Part shown: positions 2,420 through 34,068 of the stretch, piece after piece
How positions within the stretch are numbered: the stretch's first letter is position 1
Layout: every line of letters starts with the position of its first letter
DNA from: Patescibacteria group bacterium
GTDB taxonomy: Bacteria; Patescibacteriota; WWE3; JAUXAW01; JAYEID01
NCBI GenBank assembly: GCA_034659915.1
Contig: JAYEID010000024.1
Location: 1-37,107, forward strand
Length of the DNA: 37,107 bases
Direction of reading: 5' to 3'
Notes under the pieces: generated by a model
Databases searched by the model: none
What the model was told of the DNA's origin: nothing
Seen by the model: only the letters and a program-made list of their open reading frames with translations
Program-made: the position numbers and the translations under genes

Positions 2420-4942
2420 ATGATCATTGATAATCTAGATCAGTTGGAATTTAAGACTCCGATGATGCAGCAGTGGTTACAGATCCGGAAAAAATATCCG
2501 GGTTGCCTTCTGCTTTTTCGTCTTGGTGATTTTTATGAACTTTTTCTTGGGGATGCAAAAGTTTCGGCAGAGATTCTGGGTATTGCTTTAACTACCCGTA
2601 ACCGTGGGCGGGATGGACGTGTACCTATGTGTGGTATTCCTTATCATGCCTTGGATACTTATTTAGGGAAATTAATTAAAGAGGGGTACAAAGTTGCTAT
2701 TTGTGAGCAGGTAGAAGATGCTTCCGAGACTAGTGGAATGGTGGATCGAGAAGTTGTTCGCGTGGTTACTCCAGGAACAGTTTTGGATGAGAAAAATCTT
2801 TCTCAAAAGGAAAATAATTATATTTTGGGAATAGAGATTGCAGGGCAAGAGGTGGGTTTGGCTTATGCTGATCTTAGTACTGGTGAAATTTACATTCACG
2901 AAATTACAGCGACTGATTTAGAAAAGGATTTGGTAGCAGAGGTATTGCGAATTCATCCTTCCGAAGTTATTTCTTCTCACAGAAATTATAATAATGCCCA
3001 AGTTCTTCGCGCACTTCGAGCTGTGCCGGAAGCTAATATTTATCCCTATGATAATTGGGAACAGCAAACAAGAAGTTATGCTAAGAACCTCAGAAACCAT
3101 TTTGGTGTAGTAACCTTTGAAGGGTTTGGGTTAGATAAGGTTGAAAATGAAGTGGGACTTAAAGCTGCAGCTGCTCTTTTGGGTTATTTAAAGGAAACTC
3201 AACACAGTGCTTTGCCTCATATTAAGAAGTTGACACCTTTTTGGACTGGTAACTATATGCAGCTAGGAGCTACTACTATTGCCAATTTGGAGCTTTTTAC
3301 TACCCTGCGGGGGCAACGGGGAGCAACTTTGATTGATGTATTAGATTATACTCACACAGCTGCTGGAGGGCGTAAGCTGCGGAAGTGGTTACTAAAGCCC
3401 TTACAAGATGTAGAGAAAATTAAGCAAAGATTGACTGCGGTTGGCTTACTAAAAAGTAATCCAAAACAGAGAGGAGAGGTGCAAGAAATTTTAAGTCAAA
3501 TTTTGGATATTGAACGCCTTCTTTCTCGTATTTCTGTTGGTACGGCTAACCCGCGGGATTTAGAGGGTTTGAAAGTCTCTTTTCTCAATGTAAAAAGGCT
3601 TTCCAATTATCTTTCTCAGAATTTGGAGCCATTAGCGTATCTTTTGTCAGAAAGTGTGGTGGAAGGTACGGAACCCCTGATTGACTTGTTAGAATCTTGG
3701 GTAAGGGAGGAGCCCCCGGCAACCCTTGCAGATGGGGGCTATATTGGTGATGGTGTAAATGTGGAGTTAGATGAGCTTCGTGATGTGTTGGAGGGTGGTC
3801 GGGAGTGGTTGGAAAAATTTGAAAAAAGGGAAAAATCTCAGACAGGCATATCATCTCTTAAGGTAGATCAAAACAAGGTTTTTGGGTTTTATATTGAGGT
3901 TAGTAAGGCGAATTTAGATAAGGTTCCGGATACTTATATTCGGAAACAGACGTTGACTAATTCCGAACGGTTTATTGTTCCAGAGCTAAAAGAGCGGGAA
4001 GAAGTTGTTCTCCAAGCTGAGGAAAGAATTAAGAAGCTTGAGCGCGAGCTGTTTGAAAAATTGTTGGGCAAGATTTTGGAACATGTGGATGCGGCGCAGG
4101 AAGCTGCTAATTGTTCAGCAAGGATTGATGTTTTTGCTAGTTTGGCTGAAGTTGCAGAGAAGAATCGCTACGCACGTCCAGAAGTTGTGGTGGGGGGATC
4201 TTTGGAAATTAAGGATGGGCGCCATCCTGTGATTGAACAAATGCAAAGTGACCGCCCCTTTGTTCCCAATGATACGAGTTTGGAAAAAGAAGGGGCGCAA
4301 GTCTTGCTAATAACTGGTCCGAATATGGCTGGTAAGTCAACGTATCTTCGCCAAACTGCTTTAATTACCTTGCTTGCCCAAATAGGTAGTTTTGTTCCGG
4401 CAAAAAAGGCGCAAATACCTATTCGCGACCAGATTTATACTCGGGTAGGTGCTTCTGACAATTTAAGTTTGGGGCAAAGTACGTTCTTGGTTGAGATGGT
4501 AGAGACAGCAAAGATTCTTAATAATTGTACTGATAAAAGTTTGGTTATTTTTGATGAGATTGGCCGTGGGACCGGTACTTTTGATGGAATGAGTATTGCT
4601 TGGGCAGTGATTGAGTATTTAGTTAAGAATAAGGATAAATCTGCTTTTACACTTTTTGCTACGCACTATCATGAGTTAACAGTTTTGGCAGACAAGTTTC
4701 CGGAAATAAAAAACTTGGAAATGGCGGTGGATAAAGAAAAAGATGAGATTATTTTCTTGTATAAAGTAGTAAAAGGTAGTGCTTGGCAAAGTTACGGAGT
4801 AAAAGTTGCTAAACTAGCTGGTCTCCCCTCCCCTGTGGTGGAGAGAGCAGAAAAAGTTTTGCAAAGAATTAAGAAAAACCAGGAGAAAATTTCCCTCCGG
4901 GGTGCACATGAGGATGATCGGCAGATTAGTTTGTTGGAATAG
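2420..4942 (+). CDS. mutS: DNA mismatch repair protein MutS
   Basis: The 840-residue, full-length MutS recognises mismatches and passes the signal to MutL through ATP-driven clamp formation. The mismatch-reading motif is GDFYELF with Phe38 and Glu40, matching the family Phe-X-Glu. The N-terminal mismatch-binding and connector domains are followed by the helical lever/clamp core (about 260-560). The ATPase carries Walker A GPNMAGKST (633-641), a Walker B ending in Asp712-Glu713 (VIFDEIGRGT), and the ATHYHEL signature. The ATG sits 9 bases after a TATAAT box. mutL lies downstream on the same strand, but a 305-base repeat-filled gap separates them, so they are neighbours rather than a tight operon. 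The length and every hallmark motif fit. Confidence 0.97.
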   Translation: MIIDNLDQLEFKTPMMQQWLQIRKKYPGCLLLFRLGDFYELFLGDAKVSAEILGIALTTRNRGRDGRVPMCGIPYHALDTYLGKLIKEGYKVAICEQVEDASETSGMVDREVVRVVTPGTVLDEKNLSQKENNYILGIEIAGQEVGLAYADLSTGEIYIHEITATDLEKDLVAEVLRIHPSEVISSHRNYNNAQVLRALRAVPEANIYPYDNWEQQTRSYAKNLRNHFGVVTFEGFGLDKVENEVGLKAAAALLGYLKETQHSALPHIKKLTPFWTGNYMQLGATTIANLELFTTLRGQRGATLIDVLDYTHTAAGGRKLRKWLLKPLQDVEKIKQRLTAVGLLKSNPKQRGEVQEILSQILDIERLLSRISVGTANPRDLEGLKVSFLNVKRLSNYLSQNLEPLAYLLSESVVEGTEPLIDLLESWVREEPPATLADGGYIGDGVNVELDELRDVLEGGREWLEKFEKREKSQTGISSLKVDQNKVFGFYIEVSKANLDKVPDTYIRKQTLTNSERFIVPELKEREEVVLQAEERIKKLERELFEKLLGKILEHVDAAQEAANCSARIDVFASLAEVAEKNRYARPEVVVGGSLEIKDGRHPVIEQMQSDRPFVPNDTSLEKEGAQVLLITGPNMAGKSTYLRQTALITLLAQIGSFVPAKKAQIPIRDQIYTRVGASDNLSLGQSTFLVEMVETAKILNNCTDKSLVIFDEIGRGTGTFDGMSIAWAVIEYLVKNKDKSAFTLFATHYHELTVLADKFPEIKNLEMAVDKEKDEIIFLYKVVKGSAWQSYGVKVAKLAGLPSPVVERAEKVLQRIKKNQEKISLRGAHEDDRQISLLE

Positions 4943-5247
4943 GAAATAGGAAATAAGGAATATTAAGTACCAAATTTCAAATTCCAAGTTCCAAACAAGG
5001 AAACAATGAATTGGGATGGCTAATTTTTGCGAATTTAATAACAGCGAATTGATGCGAATGGGAAGGAAGAGACTGGACCTGAAAGTCCTTTAGGGTCTGC
5101 GGATGCAGTCCCTAAAGGTCTTGGTAGAGAAAGGAGAGATTGAAGAGACTGGAAACAAGAAATAGAGGCTAAATTTTAAATGACTGCCAGAATCGCGGAA
5201 GGTGGAGAGCGGAAAGCGGTTGGCGGTTAGCTGTCGGCTGATTTATT
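4943..5247. repeat. intergenic repeat block between mutS and mutL
   Basis: No gene is visible here. From left to right it contains A-rich word repeats (GGAAATAGGAAATAAGGAAT, then AAATTTCAAATTCCAAGTTCC), a GCGAATT word cluster (about 5028-5059), a structured hairpin element (5075-5128), and a 39-base tail (5157-5195). The tail matches 26635-26673 at 34 of 39 positions. The right end is GC-richer, with GCGGAAAGCGGTTGGCGGTT. Hairpin and tail occur in the same order in the gap at 26332-26863. Confidence 0.7.
5075..5128 (+). repeat. structured intergenic element, copy 1 (strand arbitrary)
   Basis: CCTTTAGGG (5087-5095) pairs perfectly with CCCTAAAGG (5110-5118). After a single T-T mismatch (5096/5109), CTGC (5097-5100) pairs with GCAG (5105-5108), leaving a GGAT loop. 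GGACCTGAAAGTCC precedes the stem and GGTCTTGGTAGA follows it. The leading GACCT could instead pair with AGGTC (5116-5120), giving an alternative fold. Copy 2 lies at 26527-26580. Confidence 0.7.
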
Positions 5248-7011
5248 ATGAAAATTAAAAAATTACCTTCTAGTTTAATAGATAAAATTGCTGCTGGTGA
5301 GGTTGTAGAGCGTCCAGCTTCGGTGGTAAAGGAACTGGTTGAAAATGCGCTGGATGCTGATGCTAACTTTGTAAAAGTTGAAATTAAAGGGGGAGGAAAA
5401 GATAGTATTTTAGTTCGAGATGATGGTGTAGGTATGGATCGGGAAGATGCAAAACATGCTTTCGAGCGCCACTCTACAAGTAAACTCTCTTCGGTGGAAG
5501 ATTTGACTTCAATAAAAACTTTTGGGTTTCGAGGGGAGGCTCTTTCTTCTATTGCTGCTGTTTCTAAAGTGGTTTTACAAACTAAAGAGCGTGGTTCGGT
5601 GGAAGGTACACAGATTGTTATTACAGGGGGTAAAATTGATAGGGTTTCCTCCTGTGCACATCCAGAAGGTACTACAGTAAAAGTCTCCAATCTTTTTTAC
5701 AATATTCCTGCCCGGAGAAAATTTTTGAAAACTAGCAGGACAGAGTTTAAACATATTCGGGAATGGTTAACTGCACAAGCCGTAGCTCTTTCCGAAAATG
5801 GATTTTCCCTTTCTCACAATGGGCGAGATATTTTACACTTTCCAGCTGAGCAAGGTCAGGAAGAAAGAATAGAGGAAGTGTTGGGCAGCTTAGAGGACTT
5901 TGTTCCTGTTTCTGGTGAATCAGATTATACAAATTTGGATGGTTTTGTTTCTCTTCCGGGAAAAGCAAGAAAAAGAAGGAAAAACCAATATTTATATGTA
6001 AATGGGCGTTACCTAAGAAATAAGACAGTAGGAGGAGCTTTGCGTAAAGCATATAGTGATCTGCTCCCTTCTTCTCTTAACCCTCCGTATATTATGTTTG
6101 TGGATGTTCGGGAAGATTTGGTTGATGTAAATATCCATCCGCGGAAGGAAGAGATTAAATTTATTAATTCAAGTAGGGTGTATAATTTAGTTTTAAATTC
6201 TGTGAAGACAGCGCTCAGCATGAGGTTGGAGCAGGGTGGTTCTGACTTTTCGGTGCGGTTGGAAAATGTTCAGAAGTTGTCTAGCCCTCGGAAAAGGACT
6301 GGCGTAGCTAAGGATAGGGGTTTTTCATTTGATTCTCAAGAGAGACCTATTTCAAGAGCTACAGTTAAGCCCGTGGATATTTTGGATAGGATTAGAGACC
6401 AGGAACAAGTTGATGATTCTTTTCCTATTTTACAAATTGCCAATCTTTATTTGGTGGTTGCTAAGGAGGACGGTGTGCTTCTTATAGACCAGCATGCAGC
6501 GGAGGAAAGAATCTTGTTGGAGGAGTTTTTGGCACGGTATAAAAGTGAAAAGGAAAAAGGAGCTGGTCAGAAGCTTCTTATACCGCAGGTTTTTGAACTG
6601 GATAAAGAAGATTTTGGGATTTTAGTTGAAAGTGAGAACATTTTAGAGAGACTTGGTTTTGAATTTGAACTGAGCGATGAAGAAGGCTTGGTAAAATTAG
6701 TAAGCGTGCCTGCTGTGCTTGCGGAACGGGAAATAAAGCCCATACTCTACGGATTTCTTGATGATTTGAGTGAGGATCAGAATTTTGGGGATAGGGAGAC
6801 TACTGTGGCTCCGCAAGTTTATGACACTTTGGCTACGCTTGCTTGCCGTTCTGCAGTAAAGAAAGGAGATAGACTTAGTCTGCGGGAAAAAGAAAACATA
6901 GTGAACCGTTTGCAAAGCTTAGATTCACGGGGAGCTACGTGCCCACACGGAAGACCAACATGGATAAAGCTGTCCCTTTCTCGGCTTGATAGTATGTTTA
7001 AAAGAGCCTAG
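5248..7011 (+). CDS. mutL: DNA mismatch repair protein MutL, endonuclease type
   Basis: The 587-residue MutL couples MutS recognition to strand incision. The GHKL ATPase half shows ENALDADA (about 31-38), DDGVGMD and GFRGEALSS (about 93-101). The C-terminal half carries the metal-dependent nicking motif DQHAAEERILLE (414-425), an exact DQHA-X2-E-X4-E match. It also has the accompanying ACRSAVKKGD (from 532) and CPHGRPT (565-571) motifs. This is the endonuclease-proficient class used where MutH is absent. The ATG begins the conserved MKIKKLPSSLIDKIAAGEVVERPASV start; no ribosome binding site or clear -10 box is visible. Confidence 0.97.
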   Translation: MKIKKLPSSLIDKIAAGEVVERPASVVKELVENALDADANFVKVEIKGGGKDSILVRDDGVGMDREDAKHAFERHSTSKLSSVEDLTSIKTFGFRGEALSSIAAVSKVVLQTKERGSVEGTQIVITGGKIDRVSSCAHPEGTTVKVSNLFYNIPARRKFLKTSRTEFKHIREWLTAQAVALSENGFSLSHNGRDILHFPAEQGQEERIEEVLGSLEDFVPVSGESDYTNLDGFVSLPGKARKRRKNQYLYVNGRYLRNKTVGGALRKAYSDLLPSSLNPPYIMFVDVREDLVDVNIHPRKEEIKFINSSRVYNLVLNSVKTALSMRLEQGGSDFSVRLENVQKLSSPRKRTGVAKDRGFSFDSQERPISRATVKPVDILDRIRDQEQVDDSFPILQIANLYLVVAKEDGVLLIDQHAAEERILLEEFLARYKSEKEKGAGQKLLIPQVFELDKEDFGILVESENILERLGFEFELSDEEGLVKLVSVPAVLAEREIKPILYGFLDDLSEDQNFGDRETTVAPQVYDTLATLACRSAVKKGDRLSLREKENIVNRLQSLDSRGATCPHGRPTWIKLSLSRLDSMFKRA

Positions 7012-20077: not shown

Positions 20078-20080
20078 GCC

Positions 20081-20105
20081 TAGATAAACGCATTGCGTTT
20101 ATCTA
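20081..20105. repeat. REP-like palindrome, left copy
   Basis: Two 12-base arms (TAGATAAACGCA and its exact complement) surround a single T. The flanking AGC (20077-20079) and GCT (20107-20109) can extend the stem past one mismatch. An identical 25-base palindrome lies on the far side of the transposase gene. Confidence 0.9.
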
Positions 20106-20148: not shown

Positions 20149-20907
20149 ATGAGAAGAAAAACATCTTTTACATGTGGTGGTATATACCATATTTACACTC
20201 GTGGGATAGATGGAAAGGTAATTTTCCCTGATTGGAGCTGTTATGAATATTTTACTTCGTTAATGGAACACTGCTTAAATTATGATTATCCTTATAGTTC
20301 TCTTAAGCAGCGTCTGAAAAAGGCTCAAACCGACATGGAGAGACAACTGATTTTGAGTCAACTAGAAGAGAAAGGGATTTCCTCTCCGGTAGACATATTT
20401 TGTTTTTCAATTATGCCTACGCATCCCCACCTGATTGTGCAACAGAAAGAAGTTAATGGCGTAACTAATTTTTTTCATCGCGTTTTTACTTCATATTCAC
20501 GTTATTTTAATCTTCGCCAGGAAAGAAAAGGTTCTCTTTATGAATCTGCTTTTGAGGCCGTATGTGTGGAGTCGGATCAGCAACTAATTCATCTTAGCCG
20601 CTATCAGCATATCAACCAAAAGGCCCTTGGCCTAAACACAGTAGAGGAACTTTCTGATTACCCTTGGTCTTCTCTTTCTACGTATTTGGGGGAAAGGGAA
20701 ATCTCATTTGTTGATCCCGATCCCATACTTTCTTTTTTTTCTGGTCCGGAGGAGTATGCTGATTTCGTTTCAGCAGAAATTGATGAATATGAGCCTTTAC
20801 GGATAGCAGGTGTTGCAATTGATGACGATTTTGGGTGGTTTGCGAGGTTCCGTGCATTAGAAGAAGCGCGGAAGAAGGAGTTAAGGGAGGAGTTCAAATT
20901 GTTGTAG
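20149..20907 (+). CDS. REP-associated tyrosine (Y1) transposase, RAYT/IS200-like
   Basis: 252 residues. The N-terminus FTCGGIYHIYTRGIDGKVIF is the usual opening of Y1 transposase domains. The HUH metal motif is THPHLIV (in IMPTHPHLIVQQ), and the catalytic tyrosine is likely in FTSYSRYFN. It is followed by the family stretch LYESAFEAVCV and HLSRYQHINQKALGL..EELSDYPWSSLSTYLG. Such enzymes nick and rejoin single-stranded DNA at hairpin ends. Here the gene lies between two identical palindromes, the layout of a REP-associated transposase that acts on its own REP hairpins. The C-terminal region beyond the transposase domain is acidic and not recognised. Confidence 0.9.
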   Translation: MRRKTSFTCGGIYHIYTRGIDGKVIFPDWSCYEYFTSLMEHCLNYDYPYSSLKQRLKKAQTDMERQLILSQLEEKGISSPVDIFCFSIMPTHPHLIVQQKEVNGVTNFFHRVFTSYSRYFNLRQERKGSLYESAFEAVCVESDQQLIHLSRYQHINQKALGLNTVEELSDYPWSSLSTYLGEREISFVDPDPILSFFSGPEEYADFVSAEIDEYEPLRIAGVAIDDDFGWFARFRALEEARKKELREEFKLL

Positions 20908-20914
20908 GGACGGG

Positions 20915-20941
20915 CTAGATAAACGCATTGCGTTTATCTAG
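20915..20941. repeat. REP-like palindrome, right copy
   Basis: The same 25-base palindrome as at 20081, extended here by a C-G pair to 27 bases. It is followed by a further partial repeat GTTTATCTA. It begins 7 bases after the transposase stop codon and also sits just past the gyrA stop, so it may serve as a two-way terminator. GTAGGGACGGG lies directly in front of it. Confidence 0.9.
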
Positions 20942-25782: not shown

Positions 25783-26331
25783 TTAGACTTTTAGTTTTCG
25801 GATTCTTTTCTTTTTTGGCTTTTGTTTTTCTTGTTGTTTTGCTTTTTCTGCTTTTGATTCTCCCTTTTTTTCTTCCTGTTTTTTTTGGTCTGATTTGCCA
25901 GATGAGATTTGCTTCTTGTCCTCCTGAAAACCTTCTTTACCCCAACTCTCCTCTTCAAAAAGGTGGCAACAGGGAGGATTTCCACAAACACCAACTTTGT
26001 TAGTGGTGCAACTGAAATTATAGCTTGCTTTGTCCAAGTTTTCGGAAGCTGGATCTTTCAACCAGGTGCTACAGCAAAGCTTTAAGCCGCATTTTCCTAT
26101 CCCGCCAACCTTCTGAGCTTTTTTGCGGGGGCTTATTTGTCTTAATTGGATGTTAGCTTGGAGGACGCGCCGAAGTTCAGATTCTAGGTTTTTGAGTTCT
26201 TTCTTTTCGGAACTTGAAAAGAAGAAGACGATGGTTTCTTCCTCTTGTTTAGCTCCCAAAATATTGATTTTTAGCTTGTTCTTTTTTGCTAGTTCCTCGC
26301 AAATTTCCAATGCTTCTTCTTCTCTAAACAC
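25783..26331 (-). CDS. RicT/PSP1-type iron-sulfur protein
   Basis: 182 residues. The core ELRRVLQANIQLRQISPRKKAQKVGGIGKCGLKLCCSTWLKD matches the PSP1 domain of Bacillus RicT (YaaT), including the Cys motif C-G-x(3)-C-C. A second Cys cluster (GVCGNPPCCHLFE) follows. The Cys residues would bind an Fe-S cluster. The N-terminal region is shorter than in RicT and the tail (about 135-182) is Lys/Glu-rich. In Bacillus, ricT lies beside holB; here holB is also next, but 532 repeat-filled bases separate them. RicT works in an RNA maturation complex; that role is inferred for this protein. GTG start, 6 bases after TATAAT. Confidence 0.85.
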   Translation of the reverse strand: MFREEEALEICEELAKKNKLKINILGAKQEEETIVFFFSSSEKKELKNLESELRRVLQANIQLRQISPRKKAQKVGGIGKCGLKLCCSTWLKDPASENLDKASYNFSCTTNKVGVCGNPPCCHLFEEESWGKEGFQEDKKQISSGKSDQKKQEEKKGESKAEKAKQQEKQKPKKKRIRKLKV

Positions 26332-26337
26332 AGCTTA

Positions 26338-26343
26338 ATTATA
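26338..26343 (-). promoter_or_regulatory. -10 box of the ricT-like gene
   Basis: On the minus strand a perfect TATAAT ends 6 bases before GTG 26331, so the mRNA is predicted to be leaderless. No -35 box is clear. Its presence shows that the gene need not depend on transcription from holB. Confidence 0.55.
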
Positions 26344-26498
26344 ACATAAAACAAGGAAGTTTGCTGATAGTTAATTGCTAATTGTTGAGATATTAGATTA
26401 AAGGATAAAAAATAGTAAATAGAAAATAAAGAATTAAAGAAAAAAAGAAAAAGAATATTAGAGATAAGAGACTGGAGACTCGTAACTCGTAACTGGAC

Positions 26499-26520
26499 CT
26501 ACCTGCCTGCCGGCAGGTAG
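26499..26520. repeat. palindrome inserted in structured element copy 2
   Basis: CTACCTGCC pairs perfectly with GGCAGGTAG around a TGCC loop. It interrupts the GGACC lead-in of the structured element relative to copy 1, so it looks like an inserted small palindromic unit. Confidence 0.75.
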
Positions 26521-26526
26521 GGACCC

Positions 26527-26580
26527 GGACCTGAAAGTCCTGCGGGGTTTCGGGATCGAATTCCCGGAGGTCTTGGTAGA
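26527..26580 (+). repeat. structured intergenic element, copy 2 (strand arbitrary)
   Basis: It has the same length and layout as 5075-5128. The 32-base stem-loop is 26539-26570. CCT pairs with AGG, then CGGG with CCCG, a G-T pair, the T-T mismatch (26548/26561), TTCG with CGAA, and a GGAT loop (26553-26556). One G-G mismatch is unique to this copy. The lead-in GGACCTGAAAGTCC and the trailer GGTCTTGGTAGA are identical to copy 1. Confidence 0.7.
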
Positions 26581-26727
26581 CTGGAGACGGGAAACACGTA
26601 ATAAGAGATAGGAGATAGAGAATAAATACTAAATAAGAAATAGAGGATGAATTTTAAATGACGGATAGAATCGACCGCAATGTCGCAGTTTATTGCAGGG
26701 GACTCTTCGGCCCTGTGCAGACTTGGA

Positions 26728-26813
26728 CCTCAGAGTGACGGCTACAATTTATTGTCATTCTGAGGAGTTTGCGAATGACGAAGGCGTGCTGAGCGGGGTC
26801 TGTTCAGAATGAC
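26728..26813. repeat. small inverted-repeat (MITE-like) element
   Basis: CCTCAGAGTGAC (26728-26739), its near-complement GTCATTCTGAGG (26754-26765) and TCAGAATGAC (26804-26813) form overlapping inverted repeats. GTCATTCTGA and TCAGAATGAC make a 60-base unit with 10-bp termini. The GTCATTCTGAG..AAGAATG word type is widespread as a non-coding repeat in bacterial genomes. Confidence 0.6.
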
Positions 26814-26863
26814 TGCTATAACCGCTGAAAGCGGAGGGCGGAGTGCTTACTGGCGTTTTGCGG

Positions 26864-27574
26864 TTAAGATTTGTTCTCGTTGGAGGGCAAGCTAAGGAGA
26901 AAGGTTTCCAGCACCAGTTGTGGGGAGACATTGGTTTTTTCGATAAGATTAAAAAGATCAAGCCCTTTTCTAATGTGAGGTTCTATTTCCGGGGCGGCTC
27001 CCGATTCTTTTTGGAACATTAATTCCCGTAAGGTTAGTATCCAGATGGAAAGGATTCTTTTTGCGTGTTCCTTATCTTTCACCAGTTCTTTATTTTCTTC
27101 TGCCCACTTGAGGCGCTGGTGATATGGACTTTTAAGCAGTTTTCTGAAGCCGTCTTTCAGCTCTTTTTTTTCTTCCTCTCTGTATTCTTGTTTTTTTAGC
27201 TTTATTATTTTGCAGCGTGAGATAATTGTGGCAATAATGTTTTGAGCATGGTTAGCAGTTATTACTATTTGGCAATTTCCTGGGGGTTCTTCTAGAGTCT
27301 TTAATAGTGCGTTTTGGGCCTCTTCTGTCATGTTTTGACCTTCAAGAATTAAGGCCTGCTTTGTTTTGTTTTGGTGGGGTGTGAAATGCAATTTTTTTAT
27401 TAATGTTCGGATATCATCAATTCCAATTGAGCTGCTTTCTTTGTTATTTCCCAGAATAGATAGATCGGGGCTTGGTTTTATTTCTTTAATATCTAGAACT
27501 TCTTTGGCCTTTTCTTTCCTACTTTTGCAGTTTCCGTTAAGGATTAGTTGTGCATGGGTTGATTTCTTTTGCAT
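26864..27574 (-). CDS. holB: DNA polymerase III delta-prime-like clamp-loader subunit
   Basis: 236 residues. The AAA+ signature of delta-prime is present in MTEEAQNALLKTLEEPPGNCQIVITANH and in the SRC motif (ISRCKII). The N-terminal nucleotide site is incomplete and no Walker A is seen, as expected for delta-prime, which does not hydrolyse ATP. It starts without the first helical part of longer HolB proteins. In the holoenzyme it helps load the sliding clamp. The ricT-like gene lies next on the same strand, as in Firmicutes. Confidence 0.85.
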   Translation of the reverse strand: MQKKSTHAQLILNGNCKSRKEKAKEVLDIKEIKPSPDLSILGNNKESSSIGIDDIRTLIKKLHFTPHQNKTKQALILEGQNMTEEAQNALLKTLEEPPGNCQIVITANHAQNIIATIISRCKIIKLKKQEYREEEKKELKDGFRKLLKSPYHQRLKWAEENKELVKDKEHAKRILSIWILTLRELMFQKESGAAPEIEPHIRKGLDLFNLIEKTNVSPQLVLETFLLSLPSNENKS

Positions 27575-33675: not shown

Positions 33676-34068
33676 ATGAAAGAAGGAAAAATCAAGGATT
33701 TTACAGATTTGGAAATCTGGCAGCTTGGTAGAAAGCTGACGAGTTTGGTTTATGAAATAACGAAGTTGCTTTTGAAAAAGGCTCCTGAGGAAAAGTGGAT
33801 TATGGTTGAACAGGTGCGAAGAGCTGTACATTCCATTTGTGCAAATATAGCTGAAGCTTATGGTCGTTATCATTTTGCGGATAGCTTAAATTTTCTTTAC
33901 CATGCACGCGGTTCTTTGAAGGAGGTTAAGAGTTTCCTTTTGCTAATCGGATCTTTATATCCTTCTCTTGAAGATTTATGTAATGAAGGAGAGGTAATAG
34001 CTGACCGTTTAAATGTTAAGCTTAATAATTATATTCAGAGCACCAGAAATAGATTGAACAAAACTTGA
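33676..34068 (+). CDS. four-helix bundle protein (S23 / IVP family)
   Basis: 130 residues, all helical. The family opening is FTDLEIWQLGRKLTSLVYEITKLL, and the core motif is VRRAVHSICANIAEAYGR, typical of TIGR02436/S23 proteins first found in intervening sequences of 23S rRNA genes. The function is unknown. The gene is bracketed by GTAAAG-type repeats in opposite orientation and interrupts the pilin cluster between pilD and pilin 2, so it looks like a passenger. AGGAAG lies just before the ATG. Confidence 0.9.
   Translation: MKEGKIKDFTDLEIWQLGRKLTSLVYEITKLLLKKAPEEKWIMVEQVRRAVHSICANIAEAYGRYHFADSLNFLYHARGSLKEVKSFLLLIGSLYPSLEDLCNEGEVIADRLNVKLNNYIQSTRNRLNKT

Follow-up and report, generated by a model that had tools for sequence, protein, structure and literature searches.

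The 54-nt hairpin element between mutS and mutL in this Patescibacteria genome probably belongs to a lineage-restricted set of palindromic DNA repeats, scattered over the genome, whose mode of action resembles that of REP sequences or palindromic MITEs. The family to which it belongs, so far found in one small bacterial genome, is most likely a new REP-like mobile palindrome. The window, by which we mean the whole stretch of 37,107 nt that was analysed, contains two of its copies.

Copy 1 (5075-5128) lies in the interval between mutS (2420-4942) and mutL (5248-7011), co-directional with both genes, and is recognized by the covariance model R1 with an E value of 6e-22; the sequence at G000:C23:2485-2538 is identical to it. 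Copy 2 (26527-26580; R1 E value 6e-21), a member of the TGCGGGG/TTCG subfamily, has as neighbours an ORF at 25783-26331 and a holB-like ORF at 26864-27574, both on the minus strand and antiparallel to the element. Both copies are of the short form and lie on the plus strand. The sequence-only reading had proposed two copies at these positions with identical ends, GGACCTGAAAGTCC and GGTCTTGGTAGA, a 32-base stem-loop with a T-T mismatch in each (located at 5087-5118 and 26539-26570), and five named compensatory pair changes between them, all of which are correct. It did not mention two departures in copy 2, where one T-A pair is replaced by a G-G mismatch and one G-C pair by G-T.

Copy 1 reads GGACCTGAAAG T CCTTTAGGG T CTGC GGAT GCAG T CCCTAAAGG T CTTGGTAGA, and its predicted fold is ..(((...(((.(((((((((.((((....)))).))))))))).))))))... 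in bracket notation. The element begins with GRACCTRA, of which ACC at 5077-5079 could pair with GGT/GAT at 5123-5125; these outer pairs are weak (85% of cells paired, with no double change) and, lacking covariation, may not exist. Further inward are a lower stem (AAG at 5083-5085 with CTT at 5120-5122), which covaries as RAR/YTY, and the main stem, whose 5' side CCTTTAGGG (5087-5095) pairs with CCCTAAAGG (5110-5118), as indicated by alignment, covariation, and fold alike. The T-T mismatch is formed by positions 5096 and 5109 and encloses the upper hairpin CTGC-GGAT-GCAG (5097-5108), in which the stem covaries, the loop varies, and the top covarying pair is located. At the conserved 3' end, T-CTT-GGT-AGA (5119-5128), positions -14 to -1 mostly carry more than 1 bit, and the flanks drop. 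The folding energy of copy 1 is 13 kcal/mol below the mean of its dinucleotide shuffles; folded as RNA, copies 1 and 2 have z scores of -4.5 and -2.5, respectively, and folded as DNA, -6.3 and -3.0.

Searching the 0.81-Mb genome with covariance models, as the sequence-only reading had suggested, revealed a family far beyond chance, with about 20 copies and best E values of about 1e-22 to 6e-22. A search with the 14-mer lead-in gave six places; one model (A2, R1) was built from six sequences and another (R2) from 16, and R2 recovers the set found by R1. The copies in this one genome are intergenic, occur on both strands, and have sharp ends, a fixed fold, and two size forms; the ORFs that overlap four of them are short and probably spurious. 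The short form of about 54 nt is represented by 13 sequences at 14 places, and the long form of about 83 nt (82-85) by five clear copies, at C23:3782, C10:64287, C13:86605, C10:59077, and C23:3605. In the long copies, the 5' strand of the main stem is followed by 27-30 nt (e.g. GCGGTACCACATTGGGTACACCCCTTTGGG) before the upper hairpin starts, and these nucleotides are predicted to form an extra arm. This arm is present in some members and absent from others within at least four stem subfamilies, with short GG(G) repeats at the junctions. A disrupted copy of about 135 nt with a nested palindrome inside lies near C12:47069, and a truncated 5' half of the element adjoins C10:11940. At the disrupted locus (L059, G000:C12:46990-47160), it is a long copy that is split, and the nested palindrome is about 58 nt long (AACAGCACCACCGCAGTACTACGTAGAGTACACGGCAGGCGTAGGGTACGTCCCTTCG). 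Only 19 bases separate the copy at C3:5058 from the contig end, and over its final 52 nt it is identical to C12:55887; it looks chimeric between two subfamilies and may be an assembly artefact, for which reason it was left out of the pair counts.

Conservation was assessed on a hand alignment of 18 distinct sequences, and pair statistics on an alignment of 16. Both bases of the T-T mismatch are T in 18 of 18 distinct sequences, as invariant as the T preceding CTT at the 3' end (18/18) and the T-A pair adjoining the mismatch (18/18). Two families are distinguished by position two of the lower main stem, which is either a T-A pair or a G-G mismatch, the latter in 12 of 18. The apical loop, in contrast to the GGAT that the sequence-only reading had taken as fixed, comes in eight kinds in the 18 sequences (GAAT, CTTGT, GGAT, GTAC, CCTGT, GAA, GAAC, and AGAT); that reading had itself counted loop variation in further copies against its proposal, and this part of it falls. 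Its central proposal, that the stem is kept by pairing rather than by letters, stands, since pairing is held across the roughly 20 copies, all with an unchanged T-T mismatch where distinct sequences were aligned.

In the 16-sequence alignment, standard pairs occupy 92.0% of cells, versus 82.7% in shuffles, double-change cells number 39 versus 13.8, and the covariation score is 0.394 versus 0.203, with far lower values for slid registers. The number of pairs showing any double change is not above that in shuffles (7 versus 6.0), so that the support from covariation rests on how often changes match. Against a tree-based null modelled on R-scape, the program that the sequence-only reading had suggested, the five best among all column pairs are helix pairs, one of which is individually significant (E < 0.02); that it is only one reflects the little power of 18 related sequences. 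Tree inference gives about 16 double changes between standard pairs and 12 breaks. Beyond either end of the 54 nt, conservation drops and the flanks differ, apart from a weak purine-rich GRRAC directly upstream. Together, these data support a folded nucleic acid.

The intergenic regions containing the copies are ordered mosaics of shared modules, arranged in constant order and in the same direction as the element. Upstream modules are GCGAATTGATGCGAATGGGAAGGAAGAGACT, CTGCCTGCCGGCAGGCAGGGACTC, or CTCGTAACTCGTAACTGGAGACTC, and downstream modules are GAAAGAAAAGATTGAAGAGACTGG, TAAATAACAAATT.., or ATGAATTTTAAATGACGGATAGAATCGACC... In the window, a separate flanking palindrome, GGACCTACCTGCCTGCCGGCAGGTAGGGACCC (26495-26526, plus strand), precedes copy 2 and is a module also found 5' of other copies, and the downstream module ..AAATAGAGG..AATTTTAAATGAC..AGAATCG (5160-5195, plus strand) is common to 26638-26673 (repeat D3). 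The mosaics at 4943-5247 and 26332-26863 (loci L053-L067) also include a palindrome, CTGCCTGCCGGCAGG, and a repeat of the GTCATTCTGAGG/GGATCCTTCGACAAGCTCAGGATGAC type. Flanking modules often travel along with the element in the same order and orientation, and part of its spread may thus have occurred via larger pieces. The flanks of the copies contain no obvious target-site duplication.

Such surroundings bring to mind an explanation that we regard as unlikely, namely that the hairpin is a passive module of recombining intergenic DNA with no mobiliser of its own, spread by duplication or gene conversion, its paired changes having been produced by template switching at quasi-palindromes. The ordered mosaics that share the element's orientation are what it predicts, deletion of the arm between short repeats would fit replication slippage, and the chimeric look of the contig-end copy is in keeping with recombination, although with its last 52 nt equal to C12:55887 this copy may owe its form to the assembly. 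However, template switching would be expected to have removed the T-T mismatch, present in 18 of 18 sequences, as well as the G-G mismatch, which persists in 12 of 18. Moreover, the upstream and downstream modules vary independently of each other and of the element, which indicates that the hairpin behaves as an independent unit.

The compensatory changes do not discriminate between RNA and single-stranded DNA. Good folding as RNA would suit selection for an RNA fold, in either a small non-coding RNA or an element that regulates or stabilizes transcripts, and so would the position of copy 1 between mutS and mutL, both of which run in its direction. We nevertheless consider such a structured RNA improbable. 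Orientation relative to flanking genes is random, about 8 copies having the same and 7 the opposite direction (binomial P 1.0). Selection acting on RNA is expected to favour G-U; on the conserved strand, with the doubtful outer pairs excluded, the stems contain 7 G-T and 5 C-A errors (P 0.77, small numbers), so that neither strand is favoured as RNA. The element ends in GGTCTTGGTAGA without the T-run (U-run) that an intrinsic terminator would have 3' of the hairpin, no promoter-like sites beyond chance were found near it, and Rfam gave no match at gathering score within the window, the sole match being at chance level (E 9.7). In addition, a hairpin matching the family's model lies inside the coding sequence of glmS (see below). 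Intergenic scatter, mixed orientation, equal G-T and C-A errors, and the lack of a U-run and of an Rfam match make DNA likelier than RNA. Hammerhead-like, T-box-like, and tRNA-like readings of the element, which were based on sequence resemblance, were dropped for want of Rfam support.

It is very improbable that the 54-nt unit descends, as a degenerate end or core, from a larger transposon (for instance of IS200/IS605 type with a nested arm) whose full form is lost or unassembled: the longer forms (83 nt and, with the nested palindrome, about 135 nt) and the truncated 5' half beside C10:11940 could be read in this way, but no copy flanks a transposase gene and model searches detected no pair of distinct left and right ends enclosing a gene.

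For the dispersed DNA palindrome that we favour, the genome offers candidate mobilisers in the form of six Y1 (PF01797) RAYT-type genes, four of them above the Pfam PF01797 cut-off. All six proteins have HUH and SRYxH motifs, the latter with the catalytic tyrosine, and a RAYT-like YHIYNRG start. One of these genes is in the window (20149-20907, plus strand); its product carries both motifs, scores just below the curated PF01797 cut-off, and, with HPH, is the most diverged of the six at the second histidine pair. The 54-nt family is not concentrated near RAYT genes, with 1 of 20 copies within 1 kb (P 0.34), the nearest being 0.93 kb away with one gene in between. A RAYT protein is a putative mobiliser of the family. 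Identical 26-nt palindromes, CTAGATAAACGCATTGCGTTTATCTA, are located on both sides of the window's RAYT-type gene (20080-20105 and 20915-20940) and are likely the ends of an element carrying it; a similar hairpin, CTCTAGATAAAC, is found 3' of the copy at C18:9546. Elsewhere in the window, a 23S rRNA-intervening-sequence-type protein gene (33676-34068; PF05635, E 1.4e-21) is situated among pilin and secretion genes.

Mobilization might proceed as follows. Single-stranded DNA, exposed on the lagging strand or during repair, would adopt the hairpin fold. Its shape, together with a small number of unpaired bases, would be recognized by a protein, most likely a RAYT-type Y1 HUH transposase, which would nick the hairpin and copy or move it. 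Selection by such a hairpin-reading protein would keep pairing and the T-T mismatch while the letters drift. The extra arm would have been lost, repeatedly, by slippage or deletion between the short GG(G) repeats at its base.

Weak model matches led to a second, distantly similar family of hairpins, H, with the core GGARAAACCTCCGGGGTTTCTGCRGATCCAACCCCGGAGGTTGGGGAA and variable outer stems, at C13:87906, C13:153732, C13:154642, C13:176953, C13:179108, C2:44874, C2:45923, C2:53413, C14:23482, and C18:25726 (loci L076-L085 and L026). Most H copies are inside open frames and are read in frame (e.g. AAGETSGVSADPTPEV), giving peptides such as AAGETSGVSADPTPEVGE. Comparison with solved homologues places one in a 20-odd-residue insert of GltX and two within the two GlmS inserts at residues 135-169 and 441-483. 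In-frame insertions of REP sequences in genes are known (PMC6006769, PMC3733652). H copies do occur near RAYT genes, 3 of 11 being within 0.7 kb (P 0.0006). The glmS hairpin at C13:153732, which has the same T-T mismatch as the 54-nt family and matches its model with E values of about 1e-5 to 2e-6, is the sole sequence link between the two families. A scan of GTDB genomes with the H core gave no match, the source genome with its known copies possibly lying outside that collection. Three other large structured repeats, at C10:57676, C14:10565, and C18:28095 (loci L047, L049, and L050), have a GTACCACnnnGGGTAC arm in common, surrounded by GAGCCC or GGGGCTC and followed by ..CCTTTCAGGTnC.., and may represent a third hairpin family; two of the three adjoin tRNA-like sequence.

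A wider and rather speculative proposal, to which we assign a low probability, is that these families represent a tag-less REP-like class with a modular third arm, in which the transposase reads the hairpin shape and the T-T mismatch; the 54-nt family would then be related to the in-frame family H, with one family of shape-reading enzymes behind both extragenic and coding palindromes.

Model searches found no homologue of the 54-nt family in 44 other genomes of the class, the nearest other genome compared sharing only the order with the source genome. With the 15 best candidates per genome scored, there was likewise none in 379 other genomes of the phylum, which gave one weak match, nor in a set of 380 other genomes from the nearest relatives, which overlaps the 379, so that the searches covered roughly 380-760 other genomes. 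The weak match, in genome G173 (E 9e-5), proved to be a perfectly paired, AT-rich hairpin directly after a short basic-protein gene, probably an unrelated terminator. Viral contigs gave no match to degenerate patterns covering 11 of the 18 copies, and plasmid and phage collections none by blastn.

If the reading as REP-like mobile DNA is correct, a very small, gene-poor genome carries hairpins that are kept by their fold rather than their sequence and that do without the tag by which REP sequences are defined, and target choice by a Y1 transposase on the basis of shape and mismatch alone becomes testable. The GltX and GlmS hairpins would then be such elements that have entered the coding sequences of essential genes, in a lineage remote from Rickettsia.

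Like the REP sequences mobilized in REP/RAYT (TnpAREP) systems, the family consists of short imperfect palindromes of similar size that are dispersed, intergenic, and species-specific, with drifting stem sequences and stem mismatches, in a genome with Y1 transposases; its 54-nt short form at about 20 intergenic places falls within the 20-65 nt of dispersed, extragenic imperfect palindromes that count as REP sequences. REP sequences are themselves species-specific (PMC6006769), and REP-derived DNA oligomers also contain T-T mismatches (PMC7709200). By definition, however, a REP carries an unpaired GT[AG]G (or CGTC) tag immediately upstream of the foot of its hairpin (PMC3733652, PMC3686654, PMC6006769), a tag that is absent here from both strands, the reverse strand starting with TCTACCAAGACC; the 54-nt family is therefore not filed as a REP element. 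It further differs in that it comprises only about 20 copies, which are not arranged as inverted pairs, shows no significant clustering near RAYT genes, and has an optional third arm. Atypical structures beside TnpAREP subclass 2.6 genes (PMC6006769) resemble the family in general features, being tag-less hairpins with copies elsewhere in the host genome; unlike them, the 54-nt copies flank no transposase gene. With palindromic MITEs and Rickettsia palindromic elements (RPE), the family shares a non-autonomous, palindromic, and scattered nature; in contrast to these, it is confined to intergenic DNA, and neither terminal inverted repeats nor target duplications were recognized. Family H, for its part, resembles RPEs in its in-frame insertion into genes.
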